From NCBI GenBank assembly GCA_037447655.1, contig JBBHKE010002290.1, positions 314,017-378,016 on the forward strand: a stretch of 64,000 nucleotides of DNA, read 5' to 3'. A program made the position numbers and the translations under genes. This stretch comes from Zygnema cylindricum. Lineage: Eukaryota; Streptophyta; Zygnematophyceae; Zygnematales; Zygnemataceae. Each line of letters opens with the position of its first letter. Position 1 is the stretch's first letter. Below are positions 2,688 through 56,570 of the stretch, in pieces. The notes under the pieces are model-generated. The model worked only from the letters and a program-made list of their open reading frames with translations, did no database searches and was not told the origin of the DNA.

Positions 2688-2838
2688 TGTTGAAAAATGG
2701 TATTTTATATTTTATCTTTTTGGGTCCTGCATTTCTCATACTTGTCGTAGTCACTGAGAATTGACTGGCAGCCATGTCTACCTTAGACAGATGAGAAGAT
2801 ACGACATGAGATATGGCTCCTGCAAAAGTAACATTGCC

Positions 2839-2915
2839 ACAAACTGGATTTGATCCTGTAGCCTGCGGCGAAGAATCGTACGGCCTAGGCATCCGCCTTA
2901 TCCGTTAGGTCTTGA
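2839..2915 (-). other. Antisense tRNA-like segment in the LTR
   Basis: Read on the minus strand, this stretch has an A-box-like GACCTAACGGATAAGGCGG start and a B-box-like GGATCAAATCC end at tRNA spacing. It resembles a degenerate arginine-type tRNA. No good cloverleaf is formed, and the segment is repeated in the 3' LTR at about 8410-8490. A related segment in a different LTR-like region lies at about 12626-12705. It is not proposed to be a functional tRNA gene. Confidence 0.45.
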
Positions 2916-3114
2916 TGAAACATAACATATTTTATATTTGATATTAATTTAACGTTATATCTACCGCATATTTCATTTAACATCATACGAAACGAAACGC
3001 TACATGGAACGTGTGGTACCGCACGAAACGTAGTACCGCACGAAATTAATGAAACAAACATTTAACTTTCAACGGACGAAATTAAATGTTGCGATCGACG
3101 GTTCACAAAGCGAG

Positions 3115-3215
3115 AACGAATTTCACGCGGTCAACACGGAATGTTGACCGTCGAAATTCAACGGTCAACACGGATCATTGACCGGTGAAATTCAACGGTC
3201 AACATTTATTCGGCG
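3115..3215. promoter_or_regulatory. Cluster of W-box-like TTGACC/GGTCAA motifs in the LTR
   Basis: At least five TTGAC(C) or GGTCAA cores occur within about 100 bp, several arranged as inverted pairs such as GGTCAACA...TGTTGACC. The same cluster is kept in the 3' LTR (about 8695-8780). TTGAC(C/T) is the binding core of plant WRKY transcription factors, so the cluster may be the LTR enhancer. The spacing and palindromes are seen directly; the regulatory role is inferred. Confidence 0.4.
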
Positions 3216-3783
3216 CGCCGTCAAATCCAACGACTGAAATCGGTCGCCGTAAAAGAACGGACGGCACGCATGAGTGCCGATATGCCGGAAAACCTATCTG
3301 GGAGAAGTTTGGCGAAATGGGAGGAAAACGACACGTGGCATCATCCTATTGGATGCCGGAAGAGAAAAAGGACAGAATGACGTTGACCTATAAGCCACGT
3401 GGCAGACCGGGAGAGGTGACGAATATTTCCGTACATAAAGTACGGCGGCTTCTGTACTTTGCATGTACGATAATTAGGGTACTCATTTTTGATTGGTTTA
3501 GAATTGCTATTAGGAGTTTTTCAAGACTTAGAAAAATATTGAAAAGTCCTCTCTCTCCCAGAGGCCATCTGTACAAATAAGCTGTCTTTGAACAGCCATA
3601 ACTTTATGCTCAGGTGAGCAAATTCAGTGATTCTTTTTGCAACGGACTCAGGGGAGTCCAGGCTACACAGGGGTGTAGTCAGTCATAGTTTTTGCGTCCC
3701 AGGGTGGGACTTATTTATTGTCAAACTCAAAAGTGCATATACTATCCTAGAGGCTTCACATAAGCTGGACATTCTGTGTACCA

Positions 3784-4803
3784 ATGGAGGTCACAGAATT
3801 ACAGGTTATGGGCCCACCCTCTAGGGTGCCCATTTTTAATGGAACAGGGTTCATTTATTGGGAAACCATGATGAGGGGTGCATTAATTGAAAAACGACTA
3901 TGGGGCATTGTGAGTGGCCGTGTGCGTCGGCCATCAGCTAAATTGGGAGTTCCACCAGGGTTTGGAGGATCTCGGTTCACTGGAGGATCTGCAGGGGCAG
4001 AGGGGGTGGAGGATGTTGCAGAAAGCACCATGTCGGACAAAGGGAAGGAGAAAATCACACCGATGGCTAGTGGATCGGCTCCAGTAGCACCTGTTCAGAA
4101 AACAGAGGCGAATGATACTGAAATCTGGGATTTCAACAATACCGTGGCGACTCATTATATTCTTGGGCGTCTCACTCAAGGAGTGGCTACACCTCATCTT
4201 CATGTGCAGAGGGCAGACGAGCTGTGGGAAGCTCTTGTCGACATTTACAAGAGCAGTACGATTCAGCAGCAAAAGCTGGCAGATCAGAAGGTACAGGCAT
4301 ATGTGTACAAAGGGGGAAAAATGTTAGATTTCTGTAATGATTTGGCTGGGTTATTCATGGAGTTAGAAAGTGCAGGGAAAAGGGAGACCGAGAAAGAGAA
4401 GGTGAACACTTTGCTAATGAAACTCCCAGATGATTATGAGAACATTGTTAACAGGGTCCAGGATTTGTCAGATCATCTTTGGATCTGGAATTCTGTTGTG
4501 GGGATGATTTTGGTTCGGGAAAACACAATTGAGATTCGTAAGGGAGGAAAGAGTGTTCAAGCATTGGCTACTAGTACTGACTGGGGGGATAAGGATTCCA
4601 AGAAACCTTATGGGAACTTTGGTGGAGGAGGAAGAAGAAACCATGACGGATCTGGACTAAGGGCTCCGAAGGGGCTTTGCCACTTCTGTAAGAAGCTAGG
4701 ACACTACATGGCGGACTGCACTAAGTTGACGGAGCTGAGATTGAAGGAGGAATTGATTGGAAAACCAGCCGGAAGAAAAAAGAAGGCGTTCATTGCGACA
4801 TAA
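3784..4803 (+). pseudogene. gag: Copia Gag with zinc knuckle, ending in an in-frame TAA
   Basis: The start of the capsid region (VPIFNGTGFIYWETM) matches that of copy A. A low-complexity insert of about 60 residues follows, then the alpha-helical capsid domain, a basic glycine-rich linker and the zinc knuckle CHFCKKLGHYMADC (CX2CX4HX4C) near the C terminus. The first ATG (3784) lies inside the repeated LTR block; Met at 3808 is the alternative start. The frame closes at TAA 4801-4803 but continues in the same register as protease-integrase, so the stop is probably a mutated sense codon of one Gag-Pol frame. Confidence 0.85.
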
Positions 4804-6318
4804 GTCGTGGAAGAGGATGTCGATGATGACGATGGAGAACTTATTCTCAATGAGGAGTTGGAAGTGAAAGGTGAGCTGGAGATTCCAAGAAGGCAAAAGT
4901 GTGCTTTTGGTGGAGTGAAAGAAGCTCCTGAAGAAGGATGGATCATTGATTCAGGAGCCTCCATACATATGTGTAGAGAAAAACCATTGTTTACCAAAAT
5001 GAGAAAGATCCCTACTGTAGAGATAGAGTATGGGGATGGGAGGATAGTGACCACTAATTCAGTGGGATCAGTAGATCTGAGGGTCCTAGTTGATGGAAAG
5101 ACATCCATAGTCACTTTCTCTGATGTTCTTTTTATTCCGGAGTTGAACAAAAATCTTATCTCTACGTCGGTCTTAGATGATAAGGGCTTTGAGACTAGTA
5201 CTAAGAAAGGAGTCTTTGTTGCTAGCTATGAGAATGAAGTGTACTTCACAGCTGAAAAGGGTAGCCAAGGAATGTTTAGGCTGAATTTGAGTAATGGAAA
5301 GACGGGAGTTTACTATGCTGGTGTAAGTGATTTGATGATGTGGCATAAAAGATTGGGACATGTGCATCTAGATAGATTGAAAGAAATGAAGAAAATGGGT
5401 GTAGTTGAGGGAATACATTTTGGGGATAATGAGACTTTGGATGATTGTAGTGGGTGTGCACAAGGAAAAGCCCACAGATTGCCTTTTCCAAAGGTCGCAA
5501 CATACAAGGGTGAAAAGGTTTTAGATTTGGTTCATAGTGACATATGGGGACCGGCCAAAGTGCCATCAGTTGGAGGGAAAAGATTTATGCTTACTATCAC
5601 GGATGATTGGTCTAGATACTCTAGAGTATATTTCTTGAAAAATAAGTCAGAGGCTTCGGATTATTTTAAGCAGTATAAAGCATGGAGTGAAAAGCTTCAT
5701 GAGACACCTATAAAAAGAGTGAGGAGTGATAATGGGGGGGAATTCACTTCTAATGAGTTTGAGGATTATTTGAAAGAGGAAGGGGTTCAACACCAAAAGA
5801 CTGTCCCAAAGAATCCAAAACAAAACGGTGTAGCCAAGAGACTAAATCGGACTCTAAGTGATAGTGCCCGTAGTATGTTGACGGATAAAAAGATAAGGAA
5901 AAGTTTTTGGGCAGAAGCTATGAATTGTGCTAACTATCTCAAAAATAGAGTCCTTACCTCGGCTATAAAAGGCCAAACACCTTATGAAAGATGGACCGGA
6001 AGAAAACCTAATATTTCACACTTAAAGGTGTTTGGAAGTCAAGTGTTTAGTCTAAACACAGAAAAATCTGATTGGAAGTTAGGTACTAGAGGAAAGTCGG
6101 GATACTTACTTGGGTATGATGAAAATATAAAGGGATATAGAGTTTATGATCTCGGAAGAGAAGACATAATTTTAGTAAAACACTTGGTAGTTATGAATGA
6201 GGGAAAGTCCATAGATCCCTTTAAGTACACCAAATCGGTGAGGATTAGAATTGAATCCGAAAATGAATTAGATTCAGATTCTTCTAATTGGACTCCGATT
6301 CAGCCTGACCTTGCATAG
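4804..6318 (+). pseudogene. pol: Copia protease and integrase; catalytic Glu replaced by Lys
   Basis: The frame follows gag after TAA 4801-4803. An acidic spacer is followed by the aspartic protease motif WIIDSGASIHMC, which is intact. The integrase has its HHCC domain (HKRLGHVH ... CSGCAQGKAHRLPFP) and core with HSDIWGP and RSDNGGEF. The third acidic residue, normally Glu in NGVAERxNRT, reads Lys (NGVAKRLNRT), a G-to-A type change that should abolish strand transfer. The frame ends at TAG 6316-6318, again in register with the downstream RT. Confidence 0.88.
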
Positions 6319-8037
6319 AAAGAGGAAAAACTGATCGAGAGTGACTCTCTCTTGGAGCCACAACATCCGGTTCAAACCGAGGAAGAAAACGAGGAAAGAC
6401 TAGGAATGGACGATGAACGGCCGGAGATGGACTCCACGGATAGGGAAGAAGGTGAAGTTGTTCGGAGAAACCCAAGATTACCCTCTATCCCAGTGTCGGA
6501 GTTTGAAGGAGGAAGAAGAAGCAGCAAGAGACTTCGAGAGAGACAAGTGAACAACAAGGTAACTAAGCTGTCACATTTGAGCGAACCCCAGACTTACTCG
6601 GAAGCAGTTAATAGTCCAGAAGGTGATAGATGGGTGACAGCTATTAATGATGAGATGGCTTCCATTATGGAAGCAAACACATGGGAGTTGGTGGATTGTC
6701 CTCCAGATAGAAAGCCGATAGGATGCAAGTGGGTATTTAAGTTAAAGCTCAATCCAGATAACACTATCGAGCGATACAAGGCCAGATTAGTGGCAAAGGG
6801 GTTCACACAGAAGGAGGGGATCGATTATGAGGAGACTTTTGCTCCGGTTGTTAGATTTCCCTCCGTCCGGATTTTACTCAGTCTCGCGGCAGCGGAAGAC
6901 ATGGAAGTGCATCAGATGGACATAAAAACCGCTTTCTTACACGGAGAATTGGAAGAAGAGATCTTCATGCGACAACCGGAAGGATTTGTGGAGAAAGGAG
7001 AGGAAAGCAAGGTGTGCAGATTGATAAAGTCCCTTTATGGACTAAAGCAAGCTCCACGCCAATGGAACAAAAAGCTGGACGAGTTTTTGACGAGTTTGGG
7101 ATATATTCGAATCAGTTCGGATCATTCTATCTACTTATTTGAGGACGAGGAAGGTATAATTTTCATTGCCATATACGTTGATGATTTGCTTGTTTTGAGT
7201 AAATCAATGGAGAAAATTAACAGATTGAAAAAGGATCTAAAAGGTAGATTTGAAATGAAAGATCTAGGAGAGGCAAAGTACATCTTGGGAATTCAAATGG
7301 AGAGAGATAGAGAAAAGAAAACAATTAGACTAACTCAAAAGGAAGCAATTGGGAATATGCTTGAAAAATTTCAAATGGAAAAAGCAAATAGTTGTACGAC
7401 TCCAATGGACTTAAAGAAGGGAAATGAGGGGAGCTCAGAAGAGGGAGTCTTGATCCTAGATAATGAGCTAGGACCTGAGGAAAGCAAGTTCATGCAAACT
7501 ATTCCGTACAGACAGGTTGTCGGTAGTTTGATCTATTTTATGAACTGTACTCGTCCTGATATAGCTGCAGCTGTGGGAGTATTAAGTAGGAGTCTGAATG
7601 ATCCTCGGAAGAAAGATTGGGAAGCAGCCAAAAGGGTCATGCGATACTTGATAGGAACGAGAGATCTATGGTTGCATTTGGGAGGGGATAATACTAACAT
7701 CACCACTTGGAGTGATGCTAGTTATGGGGATGCTCCGATGAGGAGGTGTACTTCTGGATATGTGTTGTATGTTGGGAATGGGGCTTGTTGTTGGAGCAGT
7801 AAGCAACAAAAGGTGATTACTCAGTCCACCATGGAGGCTGAGTATATGGCCTCTTGTTCGGCTGTGAAAGAATTGATGTGGGTAAAACCTTTTCACCCTT
7901 GTATGTTGCGACCTTTGGAAAAGGCAATCTGTGGGCTTTTCCTTGTGCACACCCACTACAATCATCCAAAGTCTCATTATCCCCAAAATGTATTCCCTCA
8001 ACTACACCCATTTCTTCATTTTTTTCAATCTATCTAG
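6319..8037 (+). pseudogene. pol: Copia reverse transcriptase and RNase H, 3' end replaced
   Basis: The RT domain is complete: WVFKLKLNPDNTIERYKARLVAKGF, HQMDIKTAFLHGEL with the first catalytic Asp, LYGLKQAPRQW, and AIYVDDLL with the YVDD box intact. RNase H follows with SDASYGD, WSSKQQKVITQSTMEAEYMA and its acidic residues. At 7884 the normal C terminus stops, and the frame runs into an inverted copy of the element's own integrase region (5187-5522), which supplies about 50 foreign residues before the stop at 8035-8037. Confidence 0.88.
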
Positions 8038-8218
8038 ATGCACATGTCCCAATCTTTTATGCCACATCATCAAATCACTTACACCAGCATAGTAAACTCC
8101 CGTCTTTCAATTACTCAAATTCAGCCAAAACATTCCTTGGCTACCCTTTTCAGCTGTAAAGTACACTTCATTCTCATAGCTAGCAACAGAGACTCATTTC
8201 TTAGTACTAGTCTCAAAG
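7884..8218 (-). repeat. Inverted duplicate of the element's integrase region (5187-5522)
   Basis: The plus strand here is the reverse complement, nearly perfect, of 5187-5522 in the same element. Position 7884 pairs with 5522 and 8218 with 5187. It replaces the last part of RNase H and sits just upstream of the polypurine tract. Template switching during reverse transcription is a likely origin. Confidence 0.88.
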
Positions 8219-8245
8219 AGAAATGGGACTGAAAGAAAACATAGA

Positions 8246-8262
8246 CTAGAAAATAAGGGGAG
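8246..8262 (+). other. Polypurine tract of the copia element
   Basis: The purine-rich run AAAATAAGGGGAG directly precedes the TGTTG start of the 3' LTR. This is the expected place for the plus-strand primer of reverse transcription. Confidence 0.7.
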
Positions 8263-9373
8263 TGTTGAAAAATGGTATTTTATATTTTATCTTTTTGGGT
8301 CCTGCATTTCTCATACTTGTCGTAGTCACTGAGAATTGACTGGCAGCTATGTCTGCCTTAGACAGATGAGAAGATAGACATGAGATATGGCTCCTGCAAA
8401 AGTAACATTGCCACAGACAGGATTTGATCCTGTAACCTACGAGAAGAACCGTACGGCCTAGGCACCCGCCTTATCCGTTAGGTCTTGATGAAACGTAACG
8501 TACATTGTATTTGATATTGATTTAAAGTTATATCTACCCCATATTCCATTTAACATACTACGAAACGAAACGCTACATGGAACGTGTGGTACCGCACGAA
8601 ATGCAGTATCGCACGAAATTAATGAAACAAACATTTAATTTTCAACGGACGAAATTAAATGTTGCGATCGACGGTTCACAAAGCGAGAACGAATTTCACG
8701 CGGCCAACACGGAATGTTGACCGTCGAAATTCAACGGTCAACACGGAACATTGACCGGTGAAATTCAACGGTCAACATTTATTGGGCGCGCCGTCAAATC
8801 CAACGGCTGAAATCGGTCGCCGTAAAAGAACGGACGGCACGCATGAGTGCCGATATGCCGAAAAACCTACTTGGAGAAGCTCGGCGAAATGAGAGGAAAC
8901 GACACGTGGCATCATCCTATTGGATACCGGAAGAGAAAAAAGACAAAATGACGTTGAACTATAAGCCACGTGGCAGACCGAAGTGGTGCCGAATATTTCC
9001 GTACATAAAGTACGGCGCCTTCTGTACTTTGTATGTACGATAATTAGGGTACTCGTTTTTGATTGGTTTAGAATTGCTATTAGGAGTTTTTCCGGACTTA
9101 GAAAAATATTGAAAAGTCCTCTCTCTCTTAGAGGCCATCTGTGCAAATATGCTATCTTTGAACAACCATAACTTAATGCTCAGGTGAGCAAATTCAGTGA
9201 TTCTTTTTGCAACGGACTCAGGGGAGTCCAAGCTACACAAGGGTGTAGTCAGTCGTAGTTTTTGCGTCCCAGGGTGGGACTTATTTATTGTCAAACTCAA
9301 AAGTGCATATATTATCCTAGAGGCTTCACATAAGCTGGACATTCTGTGTACCAATGGAGGTCACAAAATTACA
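8263..9373 (+). repeat. 3' LTR of the copia element
   Basis: The segment aligns to 2688-3803 from TGTTGAAAAATGG to TTACA, including the W-box-like cluster, the antisense tRNA-like segment and the short block containing ATGGAGGTCACA. By eye, substitutions and small indels amount to a few per cent. The sequence diverges exactly after TTACA at 9373, where copy B begins. Confidence 0.85.
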
Positions 9374-11781: not shown

Positions 11782-12437
11782 AACATCATTGTTATTATCA
11801 TTTGCAAGATGAACCTATACAAATTGTTTCCTCCAGCAAATCCCTTTGCAGCTATTTTCCCATTCTTACTCACTGTTTTCTTTCCATTCTCAGATATAAT
11901 TTTAAAACCTTTCTTTTCTACCACTGACGTAGAGAAAAAAATTGTTTTAAAAGTTGGGACATGCAACACAACTTCCAAAACCCTTTTCACAGGTTTTCCC
12001 ACTACGTTCAATATAAGTGACACCCTCCCCTTTGCTTTTGACTCAACAAAGGTATCATCACTAAAATATATTTTGATGGGTGAAAAAGATTGAATACCCT
12101 CAAATAGATGGAGATTGCGACACATGTGGGCAGATGCACCGGATTCCAAAATCCATTCGTCTTCCTCCACGCCTTCCGTTGCTTGTGCCATTGTAAATTA
12201 TTTCTTTTCACTGTTGTCGAGAAAGCTGCTTATATCCTCCTCCTTAAGTTTGTTGAAAAGAGCACTTGGTCGTCCACCTGATTGAGAAGGAACCCGACTT
12301 TTTTCCCAACCAGAGCGAAAATTTCCTGTGGCTTTTGCTCTCTTGTAGGCATGACACATTCTGAACACATGCCCTTTTTCATCACAATAATAGCAAGTTA
12401 ATGGTGACTTTCTAGGACCACTACCTCTACCATGCTG
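11766..12437 (-). pseudogene. gag-pol: Copia zinc knuckle and protease (copy B)
   Basis: The minus strand encodes a CX2CX4HX4C zinc knuckle at about 12350-12400 matching copy A. After a stop near 12192 comes the protease frame with WILESGASAHMC, where the catalytic Asp of DSGAS reads Glu. The frame then continues to the integrase. Several stops and shifts show it is inactive. Confidence 0.8.
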
Positions 12438-13364
12438 ATATTTGAGTATTTTCTAGGTCTGTATTAGGATAATAAAAAAAGCTGAGGGGGTCTGCCTCTA
12501 ACTCCCCTCTCCAAGCCCCCACACTTGTTGTAGTCACTAAAGGCTGGATAGGGAGCTAGAGCCATGGCTGCCTAAGCTCTCTAGAGAAGACAGGGAGTAT
12601 ATTAGGTAGACTTACCAAAAGTTAGTTGACGGACCCAGGAATTGATCCTGGTACCTGCCATCCATCACTTTCCATTAGCCGTTAGCTCTAGCCGTTAAGT
12701 CTAGGAAACATATTACGATATATAGGGTTTAATAAATATATAAATTGTTACATGTAGATTAATTCGTTTAACGGCGAATAGATACTTAGTACATAGATAC
12801 AGTTTGATTTAGTACGCAGTACGGTATGCGGACAGAATGGATACTGCGCATTTGTTTCTATAGCGAAACAAATACCGCGCGTCGAATTTCAGCGGCTAGG
12901 ATTATAGCCGGTTTTGATCGGACGGTCGCGATAGGCGCTGCGATCACGGAAAAGGTACTTGCGGTTTTCATGGAAAAGGCACTAGCGTCGCGGATAGCGC
13001 NNNNNNNNNNGACTCTAGAATTACAACCCTCGGTAGTTTCGCCCAACTGCAAGGAATATCAGCCGGTTTCGAGGAGGCCGTTCTATCAAGTCGTAGTATC
13101 CTCTCTCACACCAGAGTTTTAGGGAGCCCTACCGGGGAGGGGACATAAATAAATAAAGTCTGACACACTTTCTAAAGGTAACGTGAAGCTTTAGTTTTTT
13201 ACGCTAGGGACTCGATAGAGGACACTTCTAGGATTATAGAGGGTAAGGAAGGAGGAGGAGTTCCACCCACTTAACCCCTCTAAGAACAGACCACCTCGAC
13301 TGTTTGACTTGGCCACTAACCGGGCACCTAGACGCAGAAGCCAGAGTTTTGTCAGGTTCTCTCA
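12438..13364 (+). repeat. Putative 5' LTR and leader of the gypsy element
   Basis: Copy B homology ends at about 12437 and non-coding sequence starting TGCTGATATTTGAG begins. It has a layout like the copia LTR at 2688: an ACTTGT(T/C)GTAGTCACT motif, then GCCATGGCTGCCT, then an antisense tRNA-like block ending in CCGTTAAGTCT (about 12626-12705), and an AATAAA-type signal near 13150. Assignment as the gypsy 5' LTR is by position only. The N gap at 13001-13010 and the lack of a 3' partner leave the end uncertain. Confidence 0.45.
13001..13010. other. Assembly gap (10 N)
   Basis: Ten N bases stand inside the LTR-like region. The true distance and even the correctness of this join are unknown. 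Confidence 0.98.
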
Positions 13365-14530
13365 TTGACGGCAACTTCTACCGAAGGAGAAGGCGGTTTT
13401 GAGACCGAAGACGCAGATCCACGGGCCAATCACCGGTTCAGTTTGTCAGCTCCACCAGACAAGAATCTCCCCAATTCACCCACCTTGAGGAGGAGGAAGG
13501 AATGGGAGATATTAGGATCTTCACAGGAGATAGCTCAGGGATCGCATTTTTTGATTTCGAAGTGCAATGGAAATCTTTCACACAGTCTGAAATAAATAAA
13601 TACAGGGAAGGGGCCATCCCGAGGGATTTTGAGACCACACTCTCTCCTATGATGCTGAACTATCTTGCCGGAGGAGCTTTGGCCGACTATAAGGAACGTC
13701 AACCCGCTTTGATGGCTCCCAACATTAAGATCTCAGATCTGGTTCTTGACGCCGAAGCCCTTGATGCTGCCGCTGACTTAGTTGCTGCCGCAGCCGTCTT
13801 TGTGACTGCCACTTTCACCATGGACGTGAAACTGCAGGCTAAAAAAAGAGCCTATGTTAACCACCTGCAGGCCGTGTAGGCCGTTGAGGCTGCTACCCGG
13901 ATGGTGGCCAATTTAACTCCTTGCACCGCTCTTCTGGATGCATAGAGAATCATTTATACAAAAGAAATGAAACGGCCATCAAGGAATTCACGGATTTTCG
14001 ATGTTTGGAGAATGAGACCCCGCAGACACTGTTTAATCGCCTCTCGAGCCTCTGTCAAAAAAACCAAGTTGTCTACAATTGACACCCCAGCCATGGCCAC
14101 AAAATATTACGTCGCTGTTCGGAATTCATTAAGACTAACGGAACAGGCAGCTCTCGACAATTGGAGTGCCGGTGAAGCCATCCACGACAAGAATCCAACG
14201 GCGCAAGAAATTTCATTGGCTGCCATGAAGTTATATGATCATTTTGTAAAAAACGAGGCCAGAGAAAAGGTTGTTACCGGCAAAGCGCGAGCCAACTTCG
14301 CAAGTTTCACGGGGGAATCCTCTCTTAACCAAAAGGAACAAGTAGAACTTCAAGCTTTGAGGAAGCTTAAAGGAAAACACGAAGCTGAGGCCCAACCAGA
14401 ACGTGCTATGGGGGCAGATGAAAAGGGTTAACCCGTACAACTGCTTGAACTGCAACCAACCTGGTCATGGGTGGAAACGATGCCCCAGGAAGCTCAACCT
14501 GGAACACGCTATCTAGCAAAAGGAGTTTGA
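13365..14530 (+). pseudogene. gag: Gypsy Gag with zinc knuckle (frameshifted)
   Basis: The frame MGDIRIFTGDSSGIAFFDFE starting at 13502 opens a Gag-like region that continues after frameshifts near 13880, 13970 and 14080. An ETPQTLFNRLSSL segment there is typical of gypsy capsid. A Gln/Glu-rich helix leads to the zinc knuckle CLNCNQPGHGWKRC (14442-14483, CX2CX4HX4C). A stop follows at about 14515. An upstream frame from 13365 has no recognisable match. Confidence 0.65.
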
Positions 14531-15898: not shown

Positions 15899-16287
15899 TT
15901 AATTGATACGGCGGGTATCACGAAGTCGTAGTGAATTCTAGAGCCCTTCCTAATCTCATTACCACTTCAGCATTGCAAAAAATGCCTAAGGAAATCAAGC
16001 CAGAAATCAGTCGCAGTCAAATATGCTTGAGTATGAGCAGTAGTGGGAGCCTACCAGTATATGGCATCATTAAAGCAATGCAAATTGAATTCGCGGATAA
16101 CGCTGGTCAACACGTTCATATTCAGCTTCCCTTCCTGGTAGTGGAAGGTAAGCTATCTAAAATTTTGTTGGGTATGGCCACATGGACAAGGTTGAACATG
16201 GAGCTGAGTATAAAGAAAGAACAAGTAACCGTTTCAGACCCGGAAAATCCCGAGGGCACCAAGGTAGTGGTTCCCTTGGATTTGTAG
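15899..16287 (+). pseudogene. pol: Retroviral-type aspartic protease of the gypsy element
   Basis: The active-site loop reads LIDTAGIT at 15899-15922 (Asp codon 15905-15907; usual D-T/S-G-A). A stop and frameshift follow, and the domain continues in the frame from 15931: NSRALPNLITTSAL, a beta-rich stretch (VYGIIKAMQIEF), and the flap-distal ILLGMATW motif, which corresponds to the usual (I/L)LG.(D/T)(F/W) near the C terminus. The enzyme would have cut the Gag-Pol polyprotein. It lies directly upstream of the methyltransferase. Confidence 0.65.
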
Positions 16288-16470
16288 AACCGGGGGAAAA
16301 TAACTGCTCTAGTGGCTAGATGTTATCCGGTGTATTCTGCATCCACCTCTTTAGAGCTGTTCGACGATTCCACCGATATCGCCAATTCCATCTAGCAATT
16401 CCCCATCTCCAAGCGGTGGGAAAGGGAGTATCAACGCAGATTCGGACATATCGCTACACTTCGGCGGAGA

Positions 16471-17780
16471 GTGGACAGGGGCTTTGCCACCATATCTTAC
16501 GGAACAGCAAAGCTCATCTTGCCCAAACTCCCAACGGTTCCTAACCTAGGGAGAGACTTCAACCGGCAAGTGGTGTCACTGGATATCCCGCCCTCAGTAC
16601 TCCGCATTCTCTCGCTATTTTTCGGCATTAGTTCCGACCTGGAAGCCGTCCTGATAGCGGGATACCAAGTAGAAACGTACTCGGCAGTTGAAATTGACCC
16701 AGGTGCCAGTGTAGTCAGTGAGCATCGACTGCAACAGCTGCACCAACTTTACCCACAGCAACTCCCGATGTCCGCCATGTCTAACTCCCACCGTACACTT
16801 CCCCAAAATGTATACCACATCACGAATTCACATTTGGAGAAGCTTGGAAGGGTACACTTGGTGATAGTTGGATGGCCTTGCCACGGGTATTCGTAAGCAG
16901 GACAGGGCAAAAGACACAAGGATATCCGTAGCAGAACATTTTTTCAAATGACTCGACTAATAATAGGGTTACAGGAACGCCAGGACACACCAATGGGGTA
17001 CGTATTGGAAAATGTTCACCCGACAGATGATAAGAGGAAACAGGTAGTCAACAGCTGGGACCAAGTGACCAAGGTTCGTGGGACTCCCATAGTATTTGAT
17101 GCAGCTCAGGTCGGGTCTCGAGCACACCGAGTTCAAGCTTATTGGACCAACCTGGTTGCTCTTCCTCTCTTGCAACAGCTGTTGAACACCCAGGTTCCGG
17201 ATCCCAACATCACAATTCAACAAATTCTCGGACCAGGGCGAATGGCCACCCCAGTAACCACAGCCGACCAAGTACCATTCTTCGGTTGCAATAAACCCGG
17301 AAATCCACGAAGGGCCTAACCAACCCTAGTATATTTCCCTAACAGCCATGCTTACAGGAAGGGTGCACCAGGGATCCACGAAAGGCCTAACCAACCCTAG
17401 TATATTTCCCCGGATTCCAACATCACAATTCAACAAATTCTTGGACCAGGGCGAATGGCCACCCCAATAACCACAGCTGACCAAACACCATTGTTCGGTT
17501 GCAATAAACTCGAAAATCCACGAAGGGCCTAACCAACCCTAGTATATTTCCTTAACAGCCATGCTTACAGGAAGGGTGCACCAAGGATAATTTTTGACAG
17601 GAAGACCGCTACGTGGACAGCACCAATTATTGAGGAACGAGAACAAGCAATGGGATTTCAATTGGCGACCACAGCAGCACCAAGGGACTCAGCCTCGAGA
17701 AGGTGCAGTATAATCAGGCAAAGTATGGATTCGAATGCAATTTCATGGGTAATGCGACATTCTCTGGCCTTCTCCAGCCT
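16471..17780 (+). pseudogene. Cytosine-5 DNA methyltransferase domain inside the gypsy pol
   Basis: The conserved C5-methyltransferase motifs appear in order. Motif I is LSLFFGISSDLEAV at about 16608 (AdoMet site; usual F.G.G partly changed). The following acidic strand is SAVEIDPGA. Motif IV is IVGWPCHGYS with the catalytic Cys codon at 16879-16881, motif VI is LENV (ENV 17008-17016), motif VIII is QVGSRAHRVQAYWTNL (about 17104-17150), and a motif X-like RRCSIIRQSMDSN lies near 17695-17740. The SRAHR...YW.N form of motif VIII is closer to DNMT3-like enzymes than to the QRR type. TAA stops at 16894-16896 and about 17318, and an internal 213-bp duplication, disable it. In life it would transfer methyl groups from AdoMet to cytosine C5. 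It sits in the same direction as, and between, protease and RT, so it was part of the polyprotein. Confidence 0.85.
17197..17589 (+). repeat. Tandem duplication of about 213 bp in the methyltransferase C-terminal region
   Basis: The block starting CCGGATCCCAACATCAC at 17197 recurs from about 17410 (CCGGATTCCAACATCAC) with the same following text, and both run to GGAAGGGTGCACCA. A third short partial copy (GATCCACGAAAGGCC) joins them. The copies differ mainly by C/T and G/A changes. The duplication falls between motif VIII and the motif X-like region. Confidence 0.88.
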
Positions 17781-17799
17781 CCAGTCCCCAGAATCACGA

Positions 17800-19040
17800 T
17801 CAACATACCTTCAAGCTCCACTGTTGTTGGCCAGGCAAGTAACACTACAGCTTGAGGGGGGGAGAAGGACAAGAAGGGAAAAATTCAGCAAATTATATTC
17901 AAGTGGCTCACTGCACCCACAAGTTCCCTTATTTGGGGGGAGCGGAGGCTTAGAACAAGACAGCATAGGGGAAGTTGTCAGCAGCAGCGTTTTAGCAGTC
18001 GAGCTTGGGATGGATCCACAGGTAGAACTAGAATTTGACATCTCCCTTTGGGGTCGGCCACTGGAAGCATTGGCGGCAGTGGAACCCGGGAAGATGGATT
18101 GGACTTTGGGGGAACAGCTAGACCCACAGCAAAAGGCCCGACTCTCAAAGTTGTTAGAAGAAAACGGGTAGGTGTTTTCCTGGTCTGACACGGATGTAGG
18201 GATTTTGGAAACCCCTTTTCGTATTGACCTGACCGACGAGACGGCGACTGTTTGGCAAACACAGTACCCTCTCAGCTTCAAAGAGAAGGAGTTCATCACA
18301 GCAAAGGTCAAGAATTTGGAGGATGCGGGGCTAGTGCAGGAAAGTACAGGGCTACATGGGTTTGCCTCTCCAACAGTGCTCCCGCCAAAGAAAAACTAAT
18401 CTGGGAAAACTATAAATTTCTTGAGGTGTGGGGACTATCGGATGCTAAACGCGACCACGGTTTTCGACCGCTATTCAATGCCCACCCCGGAATAAATCTT
18501 CGACTCTCTTGCTGGGGCCAACATTTACTCTACGTTGGATATGAAGAATGGGTTCCATCAGATTGCAATGGAGCCAAAGCATCGGGAGTGGACCATTTTT
18601 TGGGCCGGATCTAGGATATATAAATGGTTGTACATGCCATTTGGTCTCAAAAATGCACCTACCAAATTTCAAAGGGCCATGGACGAGGCTCTGCGAGGAA
18701 TTGATTGCGCACGATGTTACATCAACAATGTGATCATCTTCTCCAAGACCTTCGAAGAACACTTGGAGAATATACAGATCGTTCTCAGGGCTCTTCAAGC
18801 AGCGAGCTTCAAGGGTCACCCGGGGAAGGGCATTTTTGGGGTGCACAAAATCATCTATCTAGGTCATGAGGTGACTCTAGGGCCAGTGGGTCCCCACATG
18901 GTTAAGGTGGCAGCCTTTGACGCCCTTCAACCACCACAGGACATTTCTGATCTTCGCACTTTCCTAAGGCTGGCCAACTATTACCGGAGGTTTATCCCCG
19001 TATTTAGTAGCCTCGCCCAGCCATTGAATTTATTACTGAG
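17800..19040 (+). pseudogene. pol: Gypsy reverse transcriptase with lost catalytic aspartates (YINN)
   Basis: The N-terminal part has PFRIDLTDE, YPLSFKEKEFI, AGLVQEST and TVLPPKK. After frameshifts the domain continues through GDYRMLN, DRYSMPTPE, STLDMKNGFHQIAM with the first catalytic Asp intact, FWAGSRIYKWLYMPFGLKNAP, and CYINNVIIFSKTFEEHL. The RT active box YIDD reads YINN (18718-18729), so both catalytic Asp are Asn. The connection LRTFLRLANYYRRFIPVFS follows. Stops at about 18169, 18398 and 18499 also break it. Confidence 0.88.
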
Positions 19041-19052
19041 AAATGACGAAGA

Positions 19053-19560
19053 GTGGCATGGGCGGCAGAACATCAGACCGCTTTTCATTTTTTTAAGGAT
19101 TCCGTAAAGCAGCACCTCGTGCTTCCGATGTCGGATCACCAGCGCCCCTTCCTTCTTTATACTGATTGGAGTAGGTTCGGATTGGGAGTCGTGTTGGCTC
19201 AAGTTGACAATGCAAGGGTTGAGTTCTTGGTGGCTTACGCTAAGCGGAGTAATAACAGAGCTGAAAGGAACTACAGCAGTTACCATAAGGAGCTCTTGGC
19301 GGTCGTTTGGGCAATTCAGCATTTCCAGCCATGTTTATGCGGGATCCACTTCACCCTCATTACCGACCATCGGCCTCTGAAATAGATCATGGAAAACAGT
19401 AATTTAAGCGGCAAACTCGCTAGGTGGGTTTTGATCCTGCAGGAATACGATTTGAGCATCATCCACCAGGCAGGAGAGATTCACGGGAATGCCGACGGAC
19501 TCAGCCAAAACCTCGACCCCTCCACATTGGATTCTACTGGGGAGCGGCATGATGAGGATT
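19053..19560 (+). pseudogene. pol: Gypsy RNase H
   Basis: The motifs LLYTDWSRFGLGVVLAQ, YHKELLAVVWAIQHF and LITDHRPLK give the D-E-D residues of retroviral RNase H. They are followed by LARWVLILQEYDLSIIHQAG and NADGLSQN, the usual end of gypsy RNase H. One stop separates ITDHRPLK from the next segment at about 19384. The enzyme would degrade the RNA strand of the RNA-DNA hybrid. Confidence 0.85.
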
Positions 19561-19844
19561 CGGAGATCAGTTTGGGACTGATACGAGCCTCCTCTGCTTT
19601 TATTTGGCTTCCCCTAGCTGGGGGGGGAATATCCACCTTTGCTACCATCGTTGAAAGACAGGCACCCATAGGGGCCGGACGGAGAGATATATGGAATGAC
19701 TCCGATAATCTATAATCCATCCAGCAGGGATCTCCACTTCCCCACTTGGCTGGTGCTCAATTATCACGTGTGCAGACACGAATGGCGTCATATGATTGGG
19801 ACCGGTGAATTTTCCTCCGGAAATGGGCTGACGGAACGAGGAAG

Positions 19845-20720
19845 GTGGTTCCTGCACCCGCAGATCGAGAAACTCTAGTTTCCCGCCTCCATCAGCAATG
19901 CGGGCACTTCGGGCAGAAAAAGACCACTTTTTTGGTCACAAGATCTTATTGGTGGCATGGGTTGTGGGCCCAAGTCAATAGGATTGTACATACTTGCTCT
20001 TCATGCGATCGAGTTAAGGCAATTTTTGATAAAAAGGGCGGAACTGAGCTTCACTCTCTTCCCATCCGGGGAATGTTTTATCGATGGTCTTTATTTCTTT
20101 TGGGACCTCTTCCAACCAATAGGCGGGGGAACCATTTTGTACTGATCATGATTGAATATTTTTTGAAATGGATCGAGTTGGTGGTGTTGCCTCGGAAGGA
20201 ATCTAAGTCAATTGCAGACGCCTTTTTAAAGAGGGTATTGTCATAATTTGGGGAACCAGCAGAGGTTCTCACCGACGAGGGATCTGTATTTGCCGTAAAA
20301 TTTACTAACCTTCTGGAGAAGTGCCTCATTGACCACCGGCTTACTTGCCGAGACCACCCACAGGCCGACGGTTTGTTCGAAAGGTGCGTACACACAGTGA
20401 AGCGGTCACTACGAAAATATGTCGTGGAAGAAGATGTGGGGGAATGAACAAAAAGGTGCCATGGATAGCAATGGGATACCGATTTAGCAAGCAGGCCTCC
20501 CTCCATTCCTATAGCCCTTTCTTTATTCTTTTTGGCCGACATCCCATCCTCCTTGGAGCTGCATCGGCTTTGGCCATTGTACTCCCGGAAATGGAAAATC
20601 GGGGGACGGTAAAGAAGCTAATTGCCGACAGGGCCATGGATTTCAGCAGGAAATGCCTCTGGCTATGGGCAGTTTACAGGCTGCTCAGCACAGGATCAGC
20701 TTTGGTATTCCCAACGCAGG
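19845..20720 (+). pseudogene. pol: Gypsy integrase, degenerate
   Basis: The zinc domain reads LHQQCGHFG ... HTCSSCDRVK (HX4H and CX2C). The core begins WSLFLLGPLPT, where the first catalytic Asp expected before LLGPLP is Phe. It then has RGNHFVLIMIEYFLKWIE, EVLTDEGSVF with the second Asp, and HPQADGLFERCVHTVKRSL with the catalytic Glu. The frame is broken at about 20244 and 20445. The C-terminal part (DCMYRMQQKKGTFDISAG) leads into the PHD finger. Confidence 0.82.
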
Positions 20721-20934
20721 AGCGGTAATTATGTCCCTCAGCAACATCGGTTCTTGCCAAGGGATTGCATGTATCGTATGCAGCAGAAAAAAGGCACTTT
20801 CGACATTTCAGCCGGACGGGTGATTCTTAAAATAGTGGAGGTTTCTAACAAAGGGGTTTTGACCTTGAAAGGAAAAGATGGCCGTAGGATTAAGGAAAAC
20901 CAGATTAATGTGGCTCTTTGCCATCTAACGAGGG

Positions 20935-21144
20935 TTGGAAGACGAACCCACTTTCCACCTCACTTACTTTGTAGATCCACCCCCATGTTCCGTAGCCTGC
21001 AACGAGTCTTCTGTGCCCGGATTCTTGTCCATGTGTGATCACTATCATCAAGGGTGGCACGACGTCTGCCTACCCTCCACTTGGGAGGCCCGCTCTCCCA
21101 CCGCAAGTTTGTGGTTCTGTGGGGACTGCGAATTTGGCGGCTAA
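20935..21144 (+). pseudogene. PHD-type zinc finger at the C-terminal end of the gypsy pol
   Basis: The core spans 20986-21129. Ligand spacing is C-SVA-C, then MCDHYHQGWHDVCL, then WFCGDC: C4HC3 order with the typical CD.C..GWH..CL and W.C..C signatures. The fourth ligand Cys reads Tyr (CDHY instead of CDxC), a single G-to-A type change, and the first pair is spaced by three residues rather than two. PHD fingers commonly read histone H3 tails. Here the domain takes the place where chromoviruses carry a chromodomain and may have guided integration. The frame ends at TAA 21142-21144, just before the polypurine tract. Confidence 0.72.
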
Positions 21145-21173
21145 TTGATCTTAACCTCTTAATCACTCAGGAC

Positions 21174-21190
21174 TAAGAGGGGGGGGGAAT
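21174..21190 (+). other. Polypurine tract of the gypsy element
   Basis: AAGAGGGGGGGGGAA follows the last pol codon by about 30 bp, as expected just before a 3' LTR. No sequence resembling 12438 onward follows it. Confidence 0.65.
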
Positions 21191-22579
21191 TTGGGGAAGG
21201 AAAGGCCCGGGGCATTTTTCTCTCTTTCACTCTTTCGCTCTTTCACTCTCTCCCTCATTCCTTCCCATGCACATTCAGGAAAAGAAAGATACAGAACAAG
21301 GCATTATCACGTATTTGAAAGGGCATCAGCATTTGAGGTGGATTGCAGGTCTTCTATGCACACCTTTTTGGACCTCTCTCCCAAACCTCCCCGTTTCTAG
21401 GACCCCAATGCACTTCTTTTGTGACGAGGGAACTCCCTTCTAAGTTGTTCCAGGCACGCTCGACATGGCACTTTAGAATTTTATACTTGTCCTCGGGTTT
21501 TTTTTCACTATATTCGTGTTTTTAAATGATAGCATGGTTTTTCAACATTAAATTTTAGTGTTTTATGTTAGAAGGGGAATAACTTGGAAATTTATGACAC
21601 TACACTCATCTTTTACATTTATGAATTTACTAGTCTAAACCATCATTTAAGAAACCCTGGTTCCTTAACCGTACATGGACACAAATTCTTTTTCTTTCTA
21701 AAGCTCATGACCAGTTCAAAAAATTACCCTAAATTGTCGACCAATAGAAGAAAAGGAGAAGAAGAAGAAGAACCTTAAGAACCAGATTCTTTCAGATCAG
21801 AAGAATACATATTATATTTTTTCTTTTTCCCAGTTGCAAATTTATGCTTTCATCTGATGCCTAGCCTTATGCTTTGTCGTTTGTGTCCCTTAAATAGTAT
21901 GGTGTTTAATCAGATATAGTGCTGAATACATAAACGTATACACCGTTTGTATCCGGTTTAAAGAGAAAAAACAGTAAAACGCCTACCATCCTTATGCTTT
22001 GTCCTTTCTGTCCCTTAAACAGTACAGTGTTTACTCGTACTGAATCAGATACAGCACCGAATACATAAAAGTGTACACCAGTTTGTATTCGGTTCAATGA
22101 GAAAAAAAGGTAAAACACCCACCCTTATGCTTTGTCCGTTCTGTCCCTTAAATAATATGGTGTTTTATAATAGTCTACACCAGTTTGTATCCGATTCAAT
22201 GAGAAAGAAAAGGTAAAAGTCCCATAGTGGAGCAACAAAACCAAGTCTAGGTGAAGGTCTCGTGAGAAAAACGACAAAACTAAAACTACCTGTACAAATT
22301 GTGTACTGAAAACTTTTTTCTTTTTTTATCCTTAATACAAAAATATGTGCATAAACTCGGGCAGGTACAAATAATTTTGGTGTCCAAAAGACATAATATA
22401 GGAGAGCTCCTTAGAATTATAATTCATTTTGACTTTAAAGGCTCAACAAGATGGGGAAGAGGGAGAGGGGGGGAGAGAAAAAGAGAGAAGAGGGAAGGGA
22501 AGAGTGGGGATTGGATTTCCGTACTGAAATTATCATTTGTTTCATAAGAAAGGAAGGAGGGAAGGGTAAGAAAGGATAC
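21191..22579. other. Non-coding sequence between the gypsy relic and the INSIG-like exons
   Basis: No gene is seen. A CT-rich run (about 21220-21262) and AT-rich sequence precede a three-unit tandem repeat (21865-22222), and a purine-rich run lies at 22450-22500. The final exon of the INSIG-like gene, expected on the minus strand after 22580, was sought here and not found. Confidence 0.5.
21865..22222. repeat. Three tandem units of about 125-133 bp
   Basis: Each unit starts CCTTATGCTTTGTC (21865, 21990, 22123) and contains TGTCCCTTAAA, a GTACACCAGTTTGTAT-like stretch and a GAGAAAAAA end. The units are diverged and the third is shortened. Confidence 0.8.
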
Positions 22580-25159
22580 CTCTTCACCCAAAAATAAATC
22601 CGGATTGCTGTAATGCCATAAGCCGAAATACCTGAAATATTGCAAAAACACAAGTTAGAAAAACAAGTTTTAAAACAAAAAAAGAAGAAAACTTGAAAAA
22701 CTTAGTCCCATAGTTCCATAAAAAGGCATAGAAATTTTCAGAGACCGAACTGAGAAAAGGTCTAAGGAGAGGCCCACCCAATCAAACTGAAAAAAAAAGT
22801 TCAGTTGTCCAGTTTGAAAAAAACAAAGTTTCTTTTTTCCCCCTCATAAAATTGGAACTTGACTTGTAAATGGCAAATGGTAAAATAGTCCAGGTCAGAG
22901 ACAAAAATTGTAAGTAAACCACAAAACTTTCAGGATTAAAAAAAAATTAACACACGAAAAGTGGAAGCATTCATTCTTAACCAAAAAAAAAAAGGACGAG
23001 AGTTAAAAATCGATGAATGAAAACACTAAAAAATCTCTCCAACATTTTGCACCAGTTTCTGTGGGTGGAAACCAGTTTTTTAGGGTTAAAACTCTCATTC
23101 ATCTCCCTCTCCCTCTCCCAATCATTATCCCTCCATCTCATTGCCCTCCTCTTCCACAAATTCCCAAGTGCCTTTCCATCTATTCTCACCCCATACCCAC
23201 ACTAATACCCATTATCAATCTCCCTCCCTCTCCATTAATCTCCCTATTCCCATTCTCCCTCTATTATACTCCCAATATCAATCTTTCCCTTCCTCCCTGT
23301 TTATTATACTGCCATTATCAGTCTCCCACCGTCTGCGTTATCTCCCTCTCCGAAACTTCGTCTATTATATCCCCAATATCAATCTCTCCTTCCCTCACCA
23401 TTTATTATTACCCCATAAAACCTCCCTCCCTCTCCATCTATTATTACCCCATCATCCACCTCCCTCCCTTCTCCATTCATTATTACCCCATTATCAACCT
23501 CCCTCCCTCTCCATTTATTACTACCCCATTACCAATCTCCTTCCCTCTCCCTGCCTTCCCATCCCTCCTCACCGCATGACTACAATTTCTGATGCCGGGG
23601 CCGCCACTGCCACAAAGGCCGCCAGAAGATACCCCCACCAGGTACGGTCGAAAATGTACCAGTTGACATGGGCACAAACTGCCAAAATAGCAAATTCTGA
23701 CAAGTACGGCATTTCGTCCTCGTACAGTTGAGCACTGAGCCGTAAGAGACCAATCAGAGTGCTGCACCAATCAGAGCTCCCAACGGCTTAGGTAAGTTCA
23801 AGGATCAAAAAAAAAATCTGTAAAACAAAATAAAAACAAAAAAAACAAAAAAACTATTATGTACACTTAAAGTGTCCATGATTGTCCACAGGTAAAACCA
23901 ATAGAGAGGGAGAGGAGGGAGGGGGAGAGAAGGACAGAGAGAGTGAAGGAAGGGGGGGGAGAGAGGGAGAGAGAGAGAGAGTCTTTCCTTTAATATGATG
24001 ATTCATGAAGACGCACATGAATGAAATCCGGTGTCAGGAGTTTTGGGCGAGGGGGAGGGGGAGGGGTAGGGAGAAGGGCTGAGGGAGGTGGAGAAGGAGG
24101 TGAAAGGGAGGGTTAGAGGTAAGAAGAGGGGGAGGAAGAGGAGAAGGCGGAGAGAGTGGCAAGGGTGATGGAGAGAGGATGGGGAGGGGGAGAGGGAGAG
24201 AGAGTGAGAGTTAGAGATGGGGGGGGGAGGGGGAGAGGGAGAGAGAGGGAGACAGAAGGAGAGGAGGCTCTCGGAAGTGGTTCTCACCCGACAGATGCCA
24301 AAACACTTTCCCACGAACCCAGTTTGAGCTGTCCAGGCTTTGCCAGCTGGCAGTCCAAGATCAGCTGAAGCACACCCAGAATACTGTAGAAGATTCCTAA
24401 AAGAGGGAAAACCTGCAATTGCAACGGGAAAAAAAAAAAACAACAAAATAACAAAACCAACAAAATAAGACAACTTTACGCCCGTTTTGATGTCAATCAC
24501 TGTCTTTTGATTATTCGATAGGCATTGTATACATTGGTCCTTATTCTGGAGAAGAGGATGACGGAAAGTAAAGAGGAACAAGGGGAAAACAAAAGGGAGA
24601 AACAAAGGGAAGGGGAGGGAGACAGAGAGAGACACAGAGGGAAATAGTAAGGAAGGTGAACCAGGGCAGAGAGGAAAAATGGGAAACAAGACAGGCGAGG
24701 TGGGCAGAAGGAGACAGTGAGAGAGGGAAGAGAAGAGAGACAGATACCAACGATTACCTGACAAGTGATTAGAGCAGGAAGAGAAAAAAAAAGACAGGCA
24801 CATAAAAAAACAAAAAAAAAGAGAAGAAACCAAAAATGTAAGCAGAAGGAAACAGAAACAGGCAGACAGAACAGGGGGGTGAGAATAAGATAGACAGGAT
24901 CAAGAGACGAGAAAGGGAGATGACAGAGACCCAGAGACGAGAGAGAAAAGAAGAGGGTAGAGAAATCCTACCCAAATATTAGTGTGGAGGCCATACGGCT
25001 CCCCACCAATAGTGACAGCTCCTATGTCGTACGTCTGAAGCCCCACCGCAGAATGAATGCCGTCCAGAGGAGCTCCGAGTCCAAAACCAAAAAAAAAGAG
25101 CCACGCGGACAGCTGTAGCCAGCCATAGAAACCTCCTCCTGCCTCCCCATACTCTTCTG
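22580..25159 (-). CDS. INSIG-like polytopic membrane protein (partial gene, four exons read)
   Basis: Exons on the minus strand with GT-AG borders and matching phases: A 25159-24972, B 24412-24288, C 23734-23573, D 22631-22580. Exon A encodes a hydrophobic helix and GLGAPLDGIHSAVGLQTYDI...LHTNIW. Exon B reads VFPLLGIFYSILGVLQLILD and exon C has AQLYEDEMPYLSEFAILAV and NWYIFDRTWWGYLLA. Exon D reads YFGLWHYSNPDLFLGEE. The arrangement resembles INSIG-domain proteins (W.PP..G, the LG..SV segment, FDR.., Y...PD..). In animals and fungi these are ER proteins that bind sterol regulators; the plant members are poorly characterised. The start exon (before A) and last exon (after D) are not identified. 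The TE cluster to the left may sit in the last intron or may have cut the gene. The splice model is well supported; the family name is moderately sure. Confidence 0.68.
23085..23572. repeat. Long pyrimidine tract adjoining a 5' splice site
   Basis: Nearly 490 bp of CT-rich repeats (units like TCTCCCTCCCTCTCCATTTATTA) on the plus strand lie directly downstream, in the minus-strand direction, of the exon C donor at 23573. Short frames found in it are low-complexity artefacts. Confidence 0.8.
24010..24270. repeat. Purine tract in the intron after exon B
   Basis: GGGAGAG-type repeats on the plus strand (CT-rich on the coding strand) start about 20 bp after the exon B donor at 24288. They are low complexity and non-coding. 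Confidence 0.8.
24540..24965. repeat. Purine tract in the intron after exon A
   Basis: About 420 bp of AG-rich plus-strand sequence begins right at the exon A donor (24971). Together with the tracts at 23085, 24010 and 22450 it shows that every visible intron of this gene opens with such a tract. Confidence 0.75.
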
Positions 25160-25279: not shown

Positions 25280-26050
25280 TAACTGTGTAGAACTGTACTG
25301 AGCCATATTGGTGTTCTGTGCCGTATTACCCTGTATTCAACAGTATTGGACCGTAGAGGCCCGTATTGAACCGTATTGAACCATATGGGGACCGTATTGG
25401 CCTGTGATGAGCCATTTAGAACTATATTGAACCATATTAGAGGGTGTTGGCCTGTGGTGAACCGTATTGAACCATATTGAACCATATTGGACCGTACTGG
25501 CCCGTATTGAACCGTATTGGGCGATGCTGAACCGTATTGAACCATACTGGACCGTAATGGACCACATTGAGCCATAATGAACATGGACCATAATGGACCA
25601 TGTTGAACCATATTGGACCGAAATGGCCAGTAATGAACCGTTTTGAACCATATTGCACCATATTGAACAATGATGAACCGTATTGAACAACATTGGATCG
25701 CATTGGACCATATTGCACCTTATTGAATGGACCATATTGGACTGAAATGGTCAGTAATGAACCTTTTTGAACAATACTGCACCATATTGGGCTGTGATAA
25801 ACCGTATTGAACTGTATTGAACCATATTGGACAGTATTGAACCACATTTGGACCAAAATGGTCAGTAATGAATAATATTGCACCGAATTGGATTGTGATG
25901 AACGCTTTCGAACCATATAGAACCATTCTGGATTGTATTGCATTGGACCGTGCTCCACCGTATTAAACAGTGTTGAACCACATGGGGCCATAATGGCGCA
26001 TGAAGAAACATTTTCTATTGGATCGTATTGAACCTATTGAACCGTGTTAA
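25280..26050. repeat. Minisatellite of about 11-bp ACCGTATTGAA-type units
   Basis: Roughly 770 bp are built from variants of ACCGTATTGAA, ACCATATTGG and ACCGTAATGG. All six-frame peptides here (runs of FNMVQYG) are products of the repeat. It occupies the interval between the divergent INSIG-like and SNU23 genes, so it may lie in their shared promoter region or in first introns. Confidence 0.9.
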
Positions 26051-48689: not shown

Positions 48690-50280
48690 CAATTCACTAT
48701 CTAATCTAATTATCTGTTTAATAATCTGTCCAATTATGTGTCAAATTATCTAAACTAATTATCTGCCAAATTATCTGTCTAATTATCTGTCTTTACTGTC
48801 TTATCTGTCTAGTTATCTGTCTAATTATCTAATTTGATTATCTATCTAAATATCTGTCTAATTATCTAATCTAATTATCTGTCAAATTACCTATCTAATC
48901 TAATTACCTATCTAATCCAATTATCAAGCTAACCTAATTATCTATCTAATCTAATTATCAATGTAATCTAATTTTTGTATCTAATCTATTTATGTATCTA
49001 ATCTAATTATCTATCTTATTATCTGTCAAATTATGAATCAAATAATTTGTCCAATTATGTGTCAAATTATCTAATCTAAGTATCTAACATATTTTTTGTC
49101 AATTTATCTGTCTATTTATCTGTCTATTTTATCTAAAATAATTATCTGTCTAGTTATCTTTTTAATTATCTTTTTAATTATCTGTTTAATTATCTGTCTA
49201 ATTATTGTCTATCTAAGTATCTAACTATTTGTCTATCTATGTGTCTATCTATGTGTCTATCTAATTATCTATCTATGTAATTATCTAATTATCTATCTAA
49301 TCTAACTATCTATCTAATCTAATTATCTATCTAATCTAATTAACTATCTAATCTAATTCACTATCTAATCAAATTATCTAAATAATCTAATTAACTATCT
49401 AATCTAATTCAATATCAAATCAAATTATCTATATAATCTAATTATCTATCTAATCTAATTCACTATCTAATATAATTCACTATCTATTCTAATTCACAAT
49501 CTAATCTAATTCACTATCTAATCTAATTATCTATCTAATCTAATTCACTATCTAATCTAATTCACAATCTAATCAGATTATCTATCTAATCTAATTACCT
49601 ATCTCATCTAATTATCCGTCTAATCTAAATATCTACCTGATCTAATTATCTATCTAATCTAGTTCACTATCTAATCCGATTATCAATCTAATCGAATTAT
49701 CTATCTAATTTAATTATCTATCTAATCTAATCATCAATCTAATCTAATTCTCTATCTAATCTAATTATCTATCTAGGGTTATTCACTATCTAATCCAAAT
49801 ATCTATCTAATCTAATTATCAAGCTAACCTAATTATCTATCTAAGTTAATTATCTATCTAATCTAATTATTTATGTAATCTATTTTTTTATCTATTATAT
49901 TTATGTATCTAATCTAATTATCTGTCTAATTATCTGTCCAATTATGTGTCAAATTATCTAATCTAATTTTCTGTCAATTTATCTATCTAATTATCTGTCT
50001 AAATTATCTGTCTAATTTTTTGTTTATCTATCTGCCAAATTATCTAAACTAATTATCTGTCTAGTTATCTTTCTAATTATCTGTTTAATTATCTATCTAA
50101 TTATATGTCTAATTTAATTATCTATCTTATCTAATTCACTATCTAATCTAATTCACTATCTAATCTAATTCACTATCTATTCTAATTCACAATCTAATCT
50201 AATTCACTATCACATCTAATTATATATCTAATCTAATTCTCTATATAATCTAATTCTATATTTCTATCATATCATGTCTG

Positions 50281-50318
<38 letters not shown>

Positions 50319-50437
50319 CATCTATCCATCTATCCATCTATCCATCTATCCATCTATCCATCTATCTATCTATCTAACTATCTATCTATCTATCGATCTA
50401 TCGATCTATCTATCTATCTACCTATCTATCTATATAC

Positions 50438-50485
<48 letters not shown>

Positions 50486-50487
50486 TT
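48690..50487. repeat. TCTA-type satellite array, left arm
   Basis: About 1.8 kb of variants of TAATTATCTATCTAATC (4-bp TCTA and longer composite units of 12-24 bp) end in a clean (TCTA)n run at about 50280-50487. The ORF reading SIYLSIYLS is an artefact of this run. The array is the reverse complement in type of 52690-54240. Confidence 0.95.
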
Positions 50488-50524
50488 ACATTACTAACCC
50501 CATATTTTGTATGATGTTTTTTAC

Positions 50525-56015: not shown

Positions 56016-56570
56016 GTTCAAAAATAGGCGATTTTATGGTAGGCCTTTGGTAGGCGCACAAAACTTGGCACAAAACTCGCGTAGAGTGGGCATACTGTAT
56101 TTGTGTGCGTTGTGCAAACTCTTGTACGAACGTACGAATCTGACGTATCATCATAGTATAGCCCACGCCGCCGGACAATTTTTTTTAGCGAAGTGACATG
56201 GCATATGATGACATTTCGCGGGAAAAACACCCAGAAAAAAAAAACGCGGACGTAAGTCGTATCGTAAGTTGTGTTATGGGCTTTTCATGTGATCTTCTTA
56301 GATCGCTACTTTGATCAGCGACTGTCCGATGGTCCAAATTTGACGGTTCAAATAAAAAATACCTCAAAACTCACGGAAAAATAAAAATGTGTCCGAATGT
56401 TTCTCAAAATTTAGACATGGCGTTTAATTCTCTATCGATCGATGTGTAACTCAACCTTGTTACTATCTGTTTTCATTTTGCGACCAATACAATATGGGTC
56501 TTAAGGTCATATTGTATGTTTTGCGTACAGTAGGCATACTGTATGGGCCTACTTTCACCTACTTTTGAAC
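56016..56570. mobile_element. 555-bp MITE with GTTCAAAA termini and TA target duplication
   Basis: The left end GTTCAAAAATAGGCG is preceded by TA (56014-56015). The right end CCTACTTTTGAAC is followed by TA (56571-56572). The inside has no coding capacity. A shorter related copy lies inverted at 56794-57149. Confidence 0.7.

Follow-up and report, generated by a model that had tools for sequence, protein, structure and literature searches.

The locus considered here raises the question of whether a cytosine-5 DNA methyltransferase belonged to the Pol polyprotein of a Ty3/gypsy-type retrotransposon or came to lie inside such an element by chance, and whether anything in this copy still works. 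Few documented retrotransposons carry the enzyme family that silences them. The methyltransferase-bearing charophyte retrotransposons that an earlier note on this DNA had mentioned do have a published counterpart in KnitGypsy-Dnmt3, a DNMT3-gypsy element described from the alga Klebsormidium nitens by de Mendoza et al. (2018, PMC5890265). The window, that is, the whole 64,000-nucleotide stretch of Zygnema cylindricum DNA that was analysed, is best explained as holding a decayed Ty3/gypsy-type copy whose Pol carried a DNMT3-type cytosine-5 methyltransferase upstream of reverse transcriptase (RT), RNase H and integrase, a reading given a probability of roughly 0.85.

The methyltransferase domain and its motifs

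A degenerate DNMT3-type cytosine-5 methyltransferase is recognized on the plus strand at 16471..17790, from its Pfam match, its resemblance to DNMT3A and its motifs. When this frame was translated with stops as X, family PF00145 matched at 29.1 bits (E 8.7e-7, cut-off 22), and the search that the earlier note had proposed for 16471-17780 thus returned the family it had named. Taken singly, the four open pieces of the domain gave no PF00145 match at E 0.1, and the NCBIfam model dcm (TIGR00675) reached only 31.5 bits on the domain against a cut-off of 100.65. DNMT3A was the top match among solved structures (3.1e-10 with 465 residues, 5.6e-11 with a 260-residue core), followed by DNMT3C and DNMT3B, and the best score was 45.4 bits compared with 14.9 bits for HhaI. 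Chains of DRM2, DNMT1 and DNMT2 were absent from the matches up to E 10, in a structure set that does contain them, as a phage methylase (L002) finds such chains there. Compared by BLAST with five phage methylases and a stretch of DNMT3A, the domain scored 60.5-73.2 bits, against a maximum of 25.4 bits in 300 shuffles. Given the PF00145 score above cut-off, the DNMT3A structure match and the distance of the BLAST scores from those of the shuffles, the homology of the domain is real. As to its exact parentage, the five phage methylases (27-29% identity, 60-73 bits) are as close to it as DNMT3A (29%, 65 bits). An AlphaFold2 model of the domain, made from the single sequence, had a mean pLDDT of 30.6, and no result was drawn from it.

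The motif strings that had been reported on one plus-strand frame were all recovered in that frame, with motif I (SLFFG) at 16612, motif IV (GWPCHGYS, containing the catalytic Cys) at 16870..16893, motif VI (ENV) at 17008 and motif VIII (RVQAYWTN) at 17128, which is the unrearranged order of C5-methylases. A motif X-like segment (RQSMDSNAISWVMRHSLAF, 17716..17772, plus strand), assigned by eye, gave no relevant match when searched alone, and this part of the proposed motif series was not upheld. Three features had gone unremarked: in motif I an F stands in place of the D of DNMT3A, the frame contains four stops, and part of the domain is duplicated in tandem. The stops lie at 16894, where a TAA immediately follows motif IV, and at 17317, 17398 and 17530.

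The surrounding element and its reading frame

All parts of the element lie on the plus strand. A putative gag region at 13502..14431, open in pieces and containing three in-frame stops, the last of which is its end, was assigned by position only, and every Pfam family scored below its cut-off there. It is followed at 14442..14483 by a CCHC zinc-knuckle motif (C-x2-C-x4-H-x4-C) in a frame that differs from that of the gag pieces; its match to PF13696 (E 0.09, 13 bits) is under the cut-off of 27. A protease-like stretch at 15907..16284 (VVNSRALPNLIT ... LLGMATW) was recognized by eye; searches of Pfam and of solved structures, the limit being as loose as E 10, gave nothing relevant for it, and it reads Asn at the position of what we take to be the catalytic Asp. 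The Ty3/gypsy-type RT at 18208..19104 is in frame with the methyltransferase as far as about 19038; its 18496-19104 portion matched RVT_1 at 1.4e-18, and the best structure match was 4ol8 (1.4e-34), followed by 7q5b, labelled Ty3-G Gag-Pol (9.6e-34). The part at 18208-18546, which matched no Pfam family when searched alone, was assigned by eye. RNase H lies at 19080..19529 (PF17917, 3.4e-33) in a frame other than that of RT, and an integrase with stops, comprising a zinc-binding part and a core, lies at 19806..20474; PF17921 matched at 5.6e-14, and the core match to PF00665 (rve; 2.2e-7, 31.5 bits) falls slightly under the cut-off of 32.6. The order of RT, RNase H and integrase downstream of the methyltransferase is that of Ty3/gypsy elements. 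The position first described for the methyltransferase, with a protease on one side and a gypsy RT on the other, is confirmed on the RT side, where the RVT_1 match lies downstream, and not on the protease side.

Terminal repeats around the element were not found in a self-BLAST of the window (rows of at least 60 bases, E 1e-5), nor by local alignment of 12433-13600 with 20701-23300, which scored 23 against a mean of 23.4 and a maximum of 29 in 30 shuffles. A ten-base assembly N gap at 13001-13010, together with decay, could hide an LTR. A small set of primer-binding-site patterns gave no match.

Whether the methyltransferase is a domain of Pol or a separate inserted gene was judged from reading frame and composition. 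Across 15901-19038, from the putative protease to RT (1046 codons), the element's frame contains 10 stops, compared with 56 and 41 for the two remaining forward frames and 39, 38 and 48 for the three reverse ones; about 52 would be expected. That a single frame has only 10 stops when the rest have 38-56 favours a domain of Pol. The G+C content of the methyltransferase (0.495) is close to that of RT (0.488), whereas outside the element 41 windows, each 1320 bases long, all stayed below 0.495 (mean 0.38, maximum 0.467). The shared frame and the matching composition together point to a domain borne by the element and argue against a stray insertion.

A chance insertion, in which an ordinary gypsy element received a fragment or a processed copy of a host DNMT3 gene that then decayed in place, would be in keeping with a fusion known here from one copy and with a linker (17800-18168) that matched no Pfam family. 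It is nevertheless judged quite unlikely, since the methyltransferase and RT share one frame in which stops are much rarer than in the other five, the methyltransferase has the composition of the element, and, apart from the tandem duplication, the flanks show short imperfect repeats only, in a search covering repeats of at least 12 bases. The domain-of-Pol reading is preferred, and frame and homology demonstrate that a gypsy-type element encoded a DNMT3-type domain in its Pol frame. With this homology and with RT, RNase H and integrase in place, the central claim of the earlier note, a C5-methyltransferase carried within a Ty3/gypsy-type Pol, is sustained. Processing of the methyltransferase from Gag-Pol, which that note had also suggested, is plausible from the shared frame and would depend on the putative protease.

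Decay of the copy and proposed self-methylation

The two pol stretches together contain 14 in-frame stops, the 10 in 15901-19038 being followed by four in 19080-20411, and a frameshift between about 19038 and 19080 separates RT and RNase H. The RT active site, at 18718-18729, reads YINN; this site usually has two aspartates. Self-comparison revealed a tandem duplication of 179 bases within the methyltransferase (17197..17375 and 17410..17588, plus strand), the copies of which are 94% identical and offset in frame by 213 bases. At 9 of their 11 differences, copy 1 has C or G and copy 2 has T or A, a bias of the second copy that would fit ageing by deamination. The stop at 17317 is repeated at 17530 and sits within a 37-base piece found three times, and this recurrence suggests that it predates the duplication. 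No intact catalytic domain was found: with its four in-frame stops and tandem duplication, the methyltransferase is the remains of a domain and not a working enzyme. Nothing in the element copy is active, the reading frame being broken throughout, and with stops throughout the frame and YINN at the RT site there is no support for activity.

For intact relatives, following the published account of such elements (PMC5890265), the methyltransferase would be produced within Pol, and its probable targets would be new cDNA or chromatin at the insertion site. The further proposal is that the element methylates its own cDNA, as a camouflage or to control its copy number, and that either this copy or an active family to which it belongs does so. 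This is hypothetical, as is the biased integration that the earlier note also put forward. Self-methylation gains from two reports in the same account (PMC5890265), namely that in yeast the DNMT3 domains of two SymbioDIRS elements carry out de novo methylation of CG and that KnitGypsy-Dnmt3 is under purifying selection, although the KnitGypsy domain was inactive in yeast, a result that its authors regard as inconclusive. For the copy itself, self-methylation is refuted as the sequence stands, by the stops at 16894, 17317, 17398 and 17530 and by YINN at the RT site, and for copy and family together it is considered very improbable.

CpG content points the same way. The element has an observed/expected ratio of 0.67 and its methyltransferase one of 0.60, compared with 0.71 in the window overall; the element is thus slightly below the window value and above several flanking stretches. 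Values across the rest of the window run from 0.33 (older copia remains) to 1.11, a fairly intact copia element having 0.74, and as 0.67 falls within this range no special CpG loss is apparent in the element. Its CpG ratio does not clearly point to self-methylation in the past, a single relic being a weak test.

A variant genetic code, in which the stops would encode amino acids and the element would be intact, has practically no probability and was rejected: of the 14 in-frame stops of the two pol stretches, 12 are TAA or TAG, and the stop at 17317 is seen again at 17530, but the other two stops are TGA, the recurring stop sits inside the duplicated segment, a frameshift lies upstream of RNase H, RT reads YINN, and a TAG at 19383 occupies what is presumably a Trp position in relatives.

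Other features of the window were recorded alongside. A Ty1/copia element at 2688-9373 has long terminal repeats (2688-3803 and 8263-9373) that are 94.4% identical and a single frame (3751-8037) with two stops, and adjoins older copia remains. On the minus strand at 44182-45333, two exon-like frames match a PGAP1-like alpha/beta domain (2.1e-14 and 4e-8) and probably belong to a host GPI inositol-deacylase gene. Long arrays of a TATCTAATCTAATTATC-type repeat of about 17 bases occupy 48691-50488 and 52691-54240 in opposite orientation, with about 2.2 kb between them, and an array of about 52 copies of a 10-base CCGTATTGAA-type repeat lies at 25321-25843. An inverted repeat of 315 bases (56260-56574 and 56790-57104, 91% identical) perhaps bounds a small DNA transposon.

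Relation to known elements

Relatives were sought in several sequence collections. Scans of viral contigs, in which only close relatives were reachable, gave five stretches with methyltransferase patterns and four with RT patterns, none of them a relative. A single match to the GWPCHGYS pattern (L001) lies in a 556-residue frame that appears by eye to be a phage terminase. Contigs of species-representative genomes gave 26 pattern stretches and no relatives, within the same reach of close relatives only. One of the six methyltransferase peptides used in the pattern scans contained a read-through residue. Plasmids gave no match to the methyltransferase at E 0.01, and 87 phage records matched it at that threshold. 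The literature searched held no data paper on a DNMT3-gypsy element beyond Klebsormidium; a 2019 opinion paper describes methylase-bearing gypsy and DIRS elements as more widely spread (PMC6338049).

What is new here is at most one more member of the kind of element known from Klebsormidium, possibly from another host. An element from a host other than Klebsormidium would reflect either a separate capture of DNMT3 or an old gypsy lineage in which the domain has been retained as the streptophytes evolved, a suggestion that is tentative and held at somewhat less than even confidence. Whether gypsy elements took up DNMT3 once or repeatedly, and whether selection keeps the domain, would be easier to decide with one more copy from another genome; this copy alone is a relic.

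Among known systems, the cytosine methylases of phages, for example the enzyme of Bacteroides phage BU2-2 (L002), are as close to the methyltransferase as DNMT3A is. They differ in being stand-alone genes, and no RT is annotated in the stretches of about 1.9 kb around the five (L002-L006). L002 itself, compared with solved structures, matched DNMT3A (3e-23) better than HaeIII or HhaI. SymbioDIRS-Dnmt3 of Symbiodinium resembles the Zygnema element in having a DNMT3 domain in a Pol with RT, but, as described, belongs to the DIRS class with a tyrosine recombinase (PMC5890265), whereas the Zygnema element has a zinc-binding and rve-type integrase. The repeats of KnitGypsy-Dnmt3 are arranged as in DIRS elements (PMC5890265), whereas none were found around the Zygnema element, the ends of which are decayed or gapped. 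The published KnitGypsy-Dnmt3 copies, unlike the broken Zygnema copy, have the key residues and are under purifying selection (PMC5890265). By its published description (PMC5890265), KnitGypsy-Dnmt3 is like the Zygnema element in having a DNMT3-type domain, with its motifs unrearranged, inside a Ty3/gypsy Pol.
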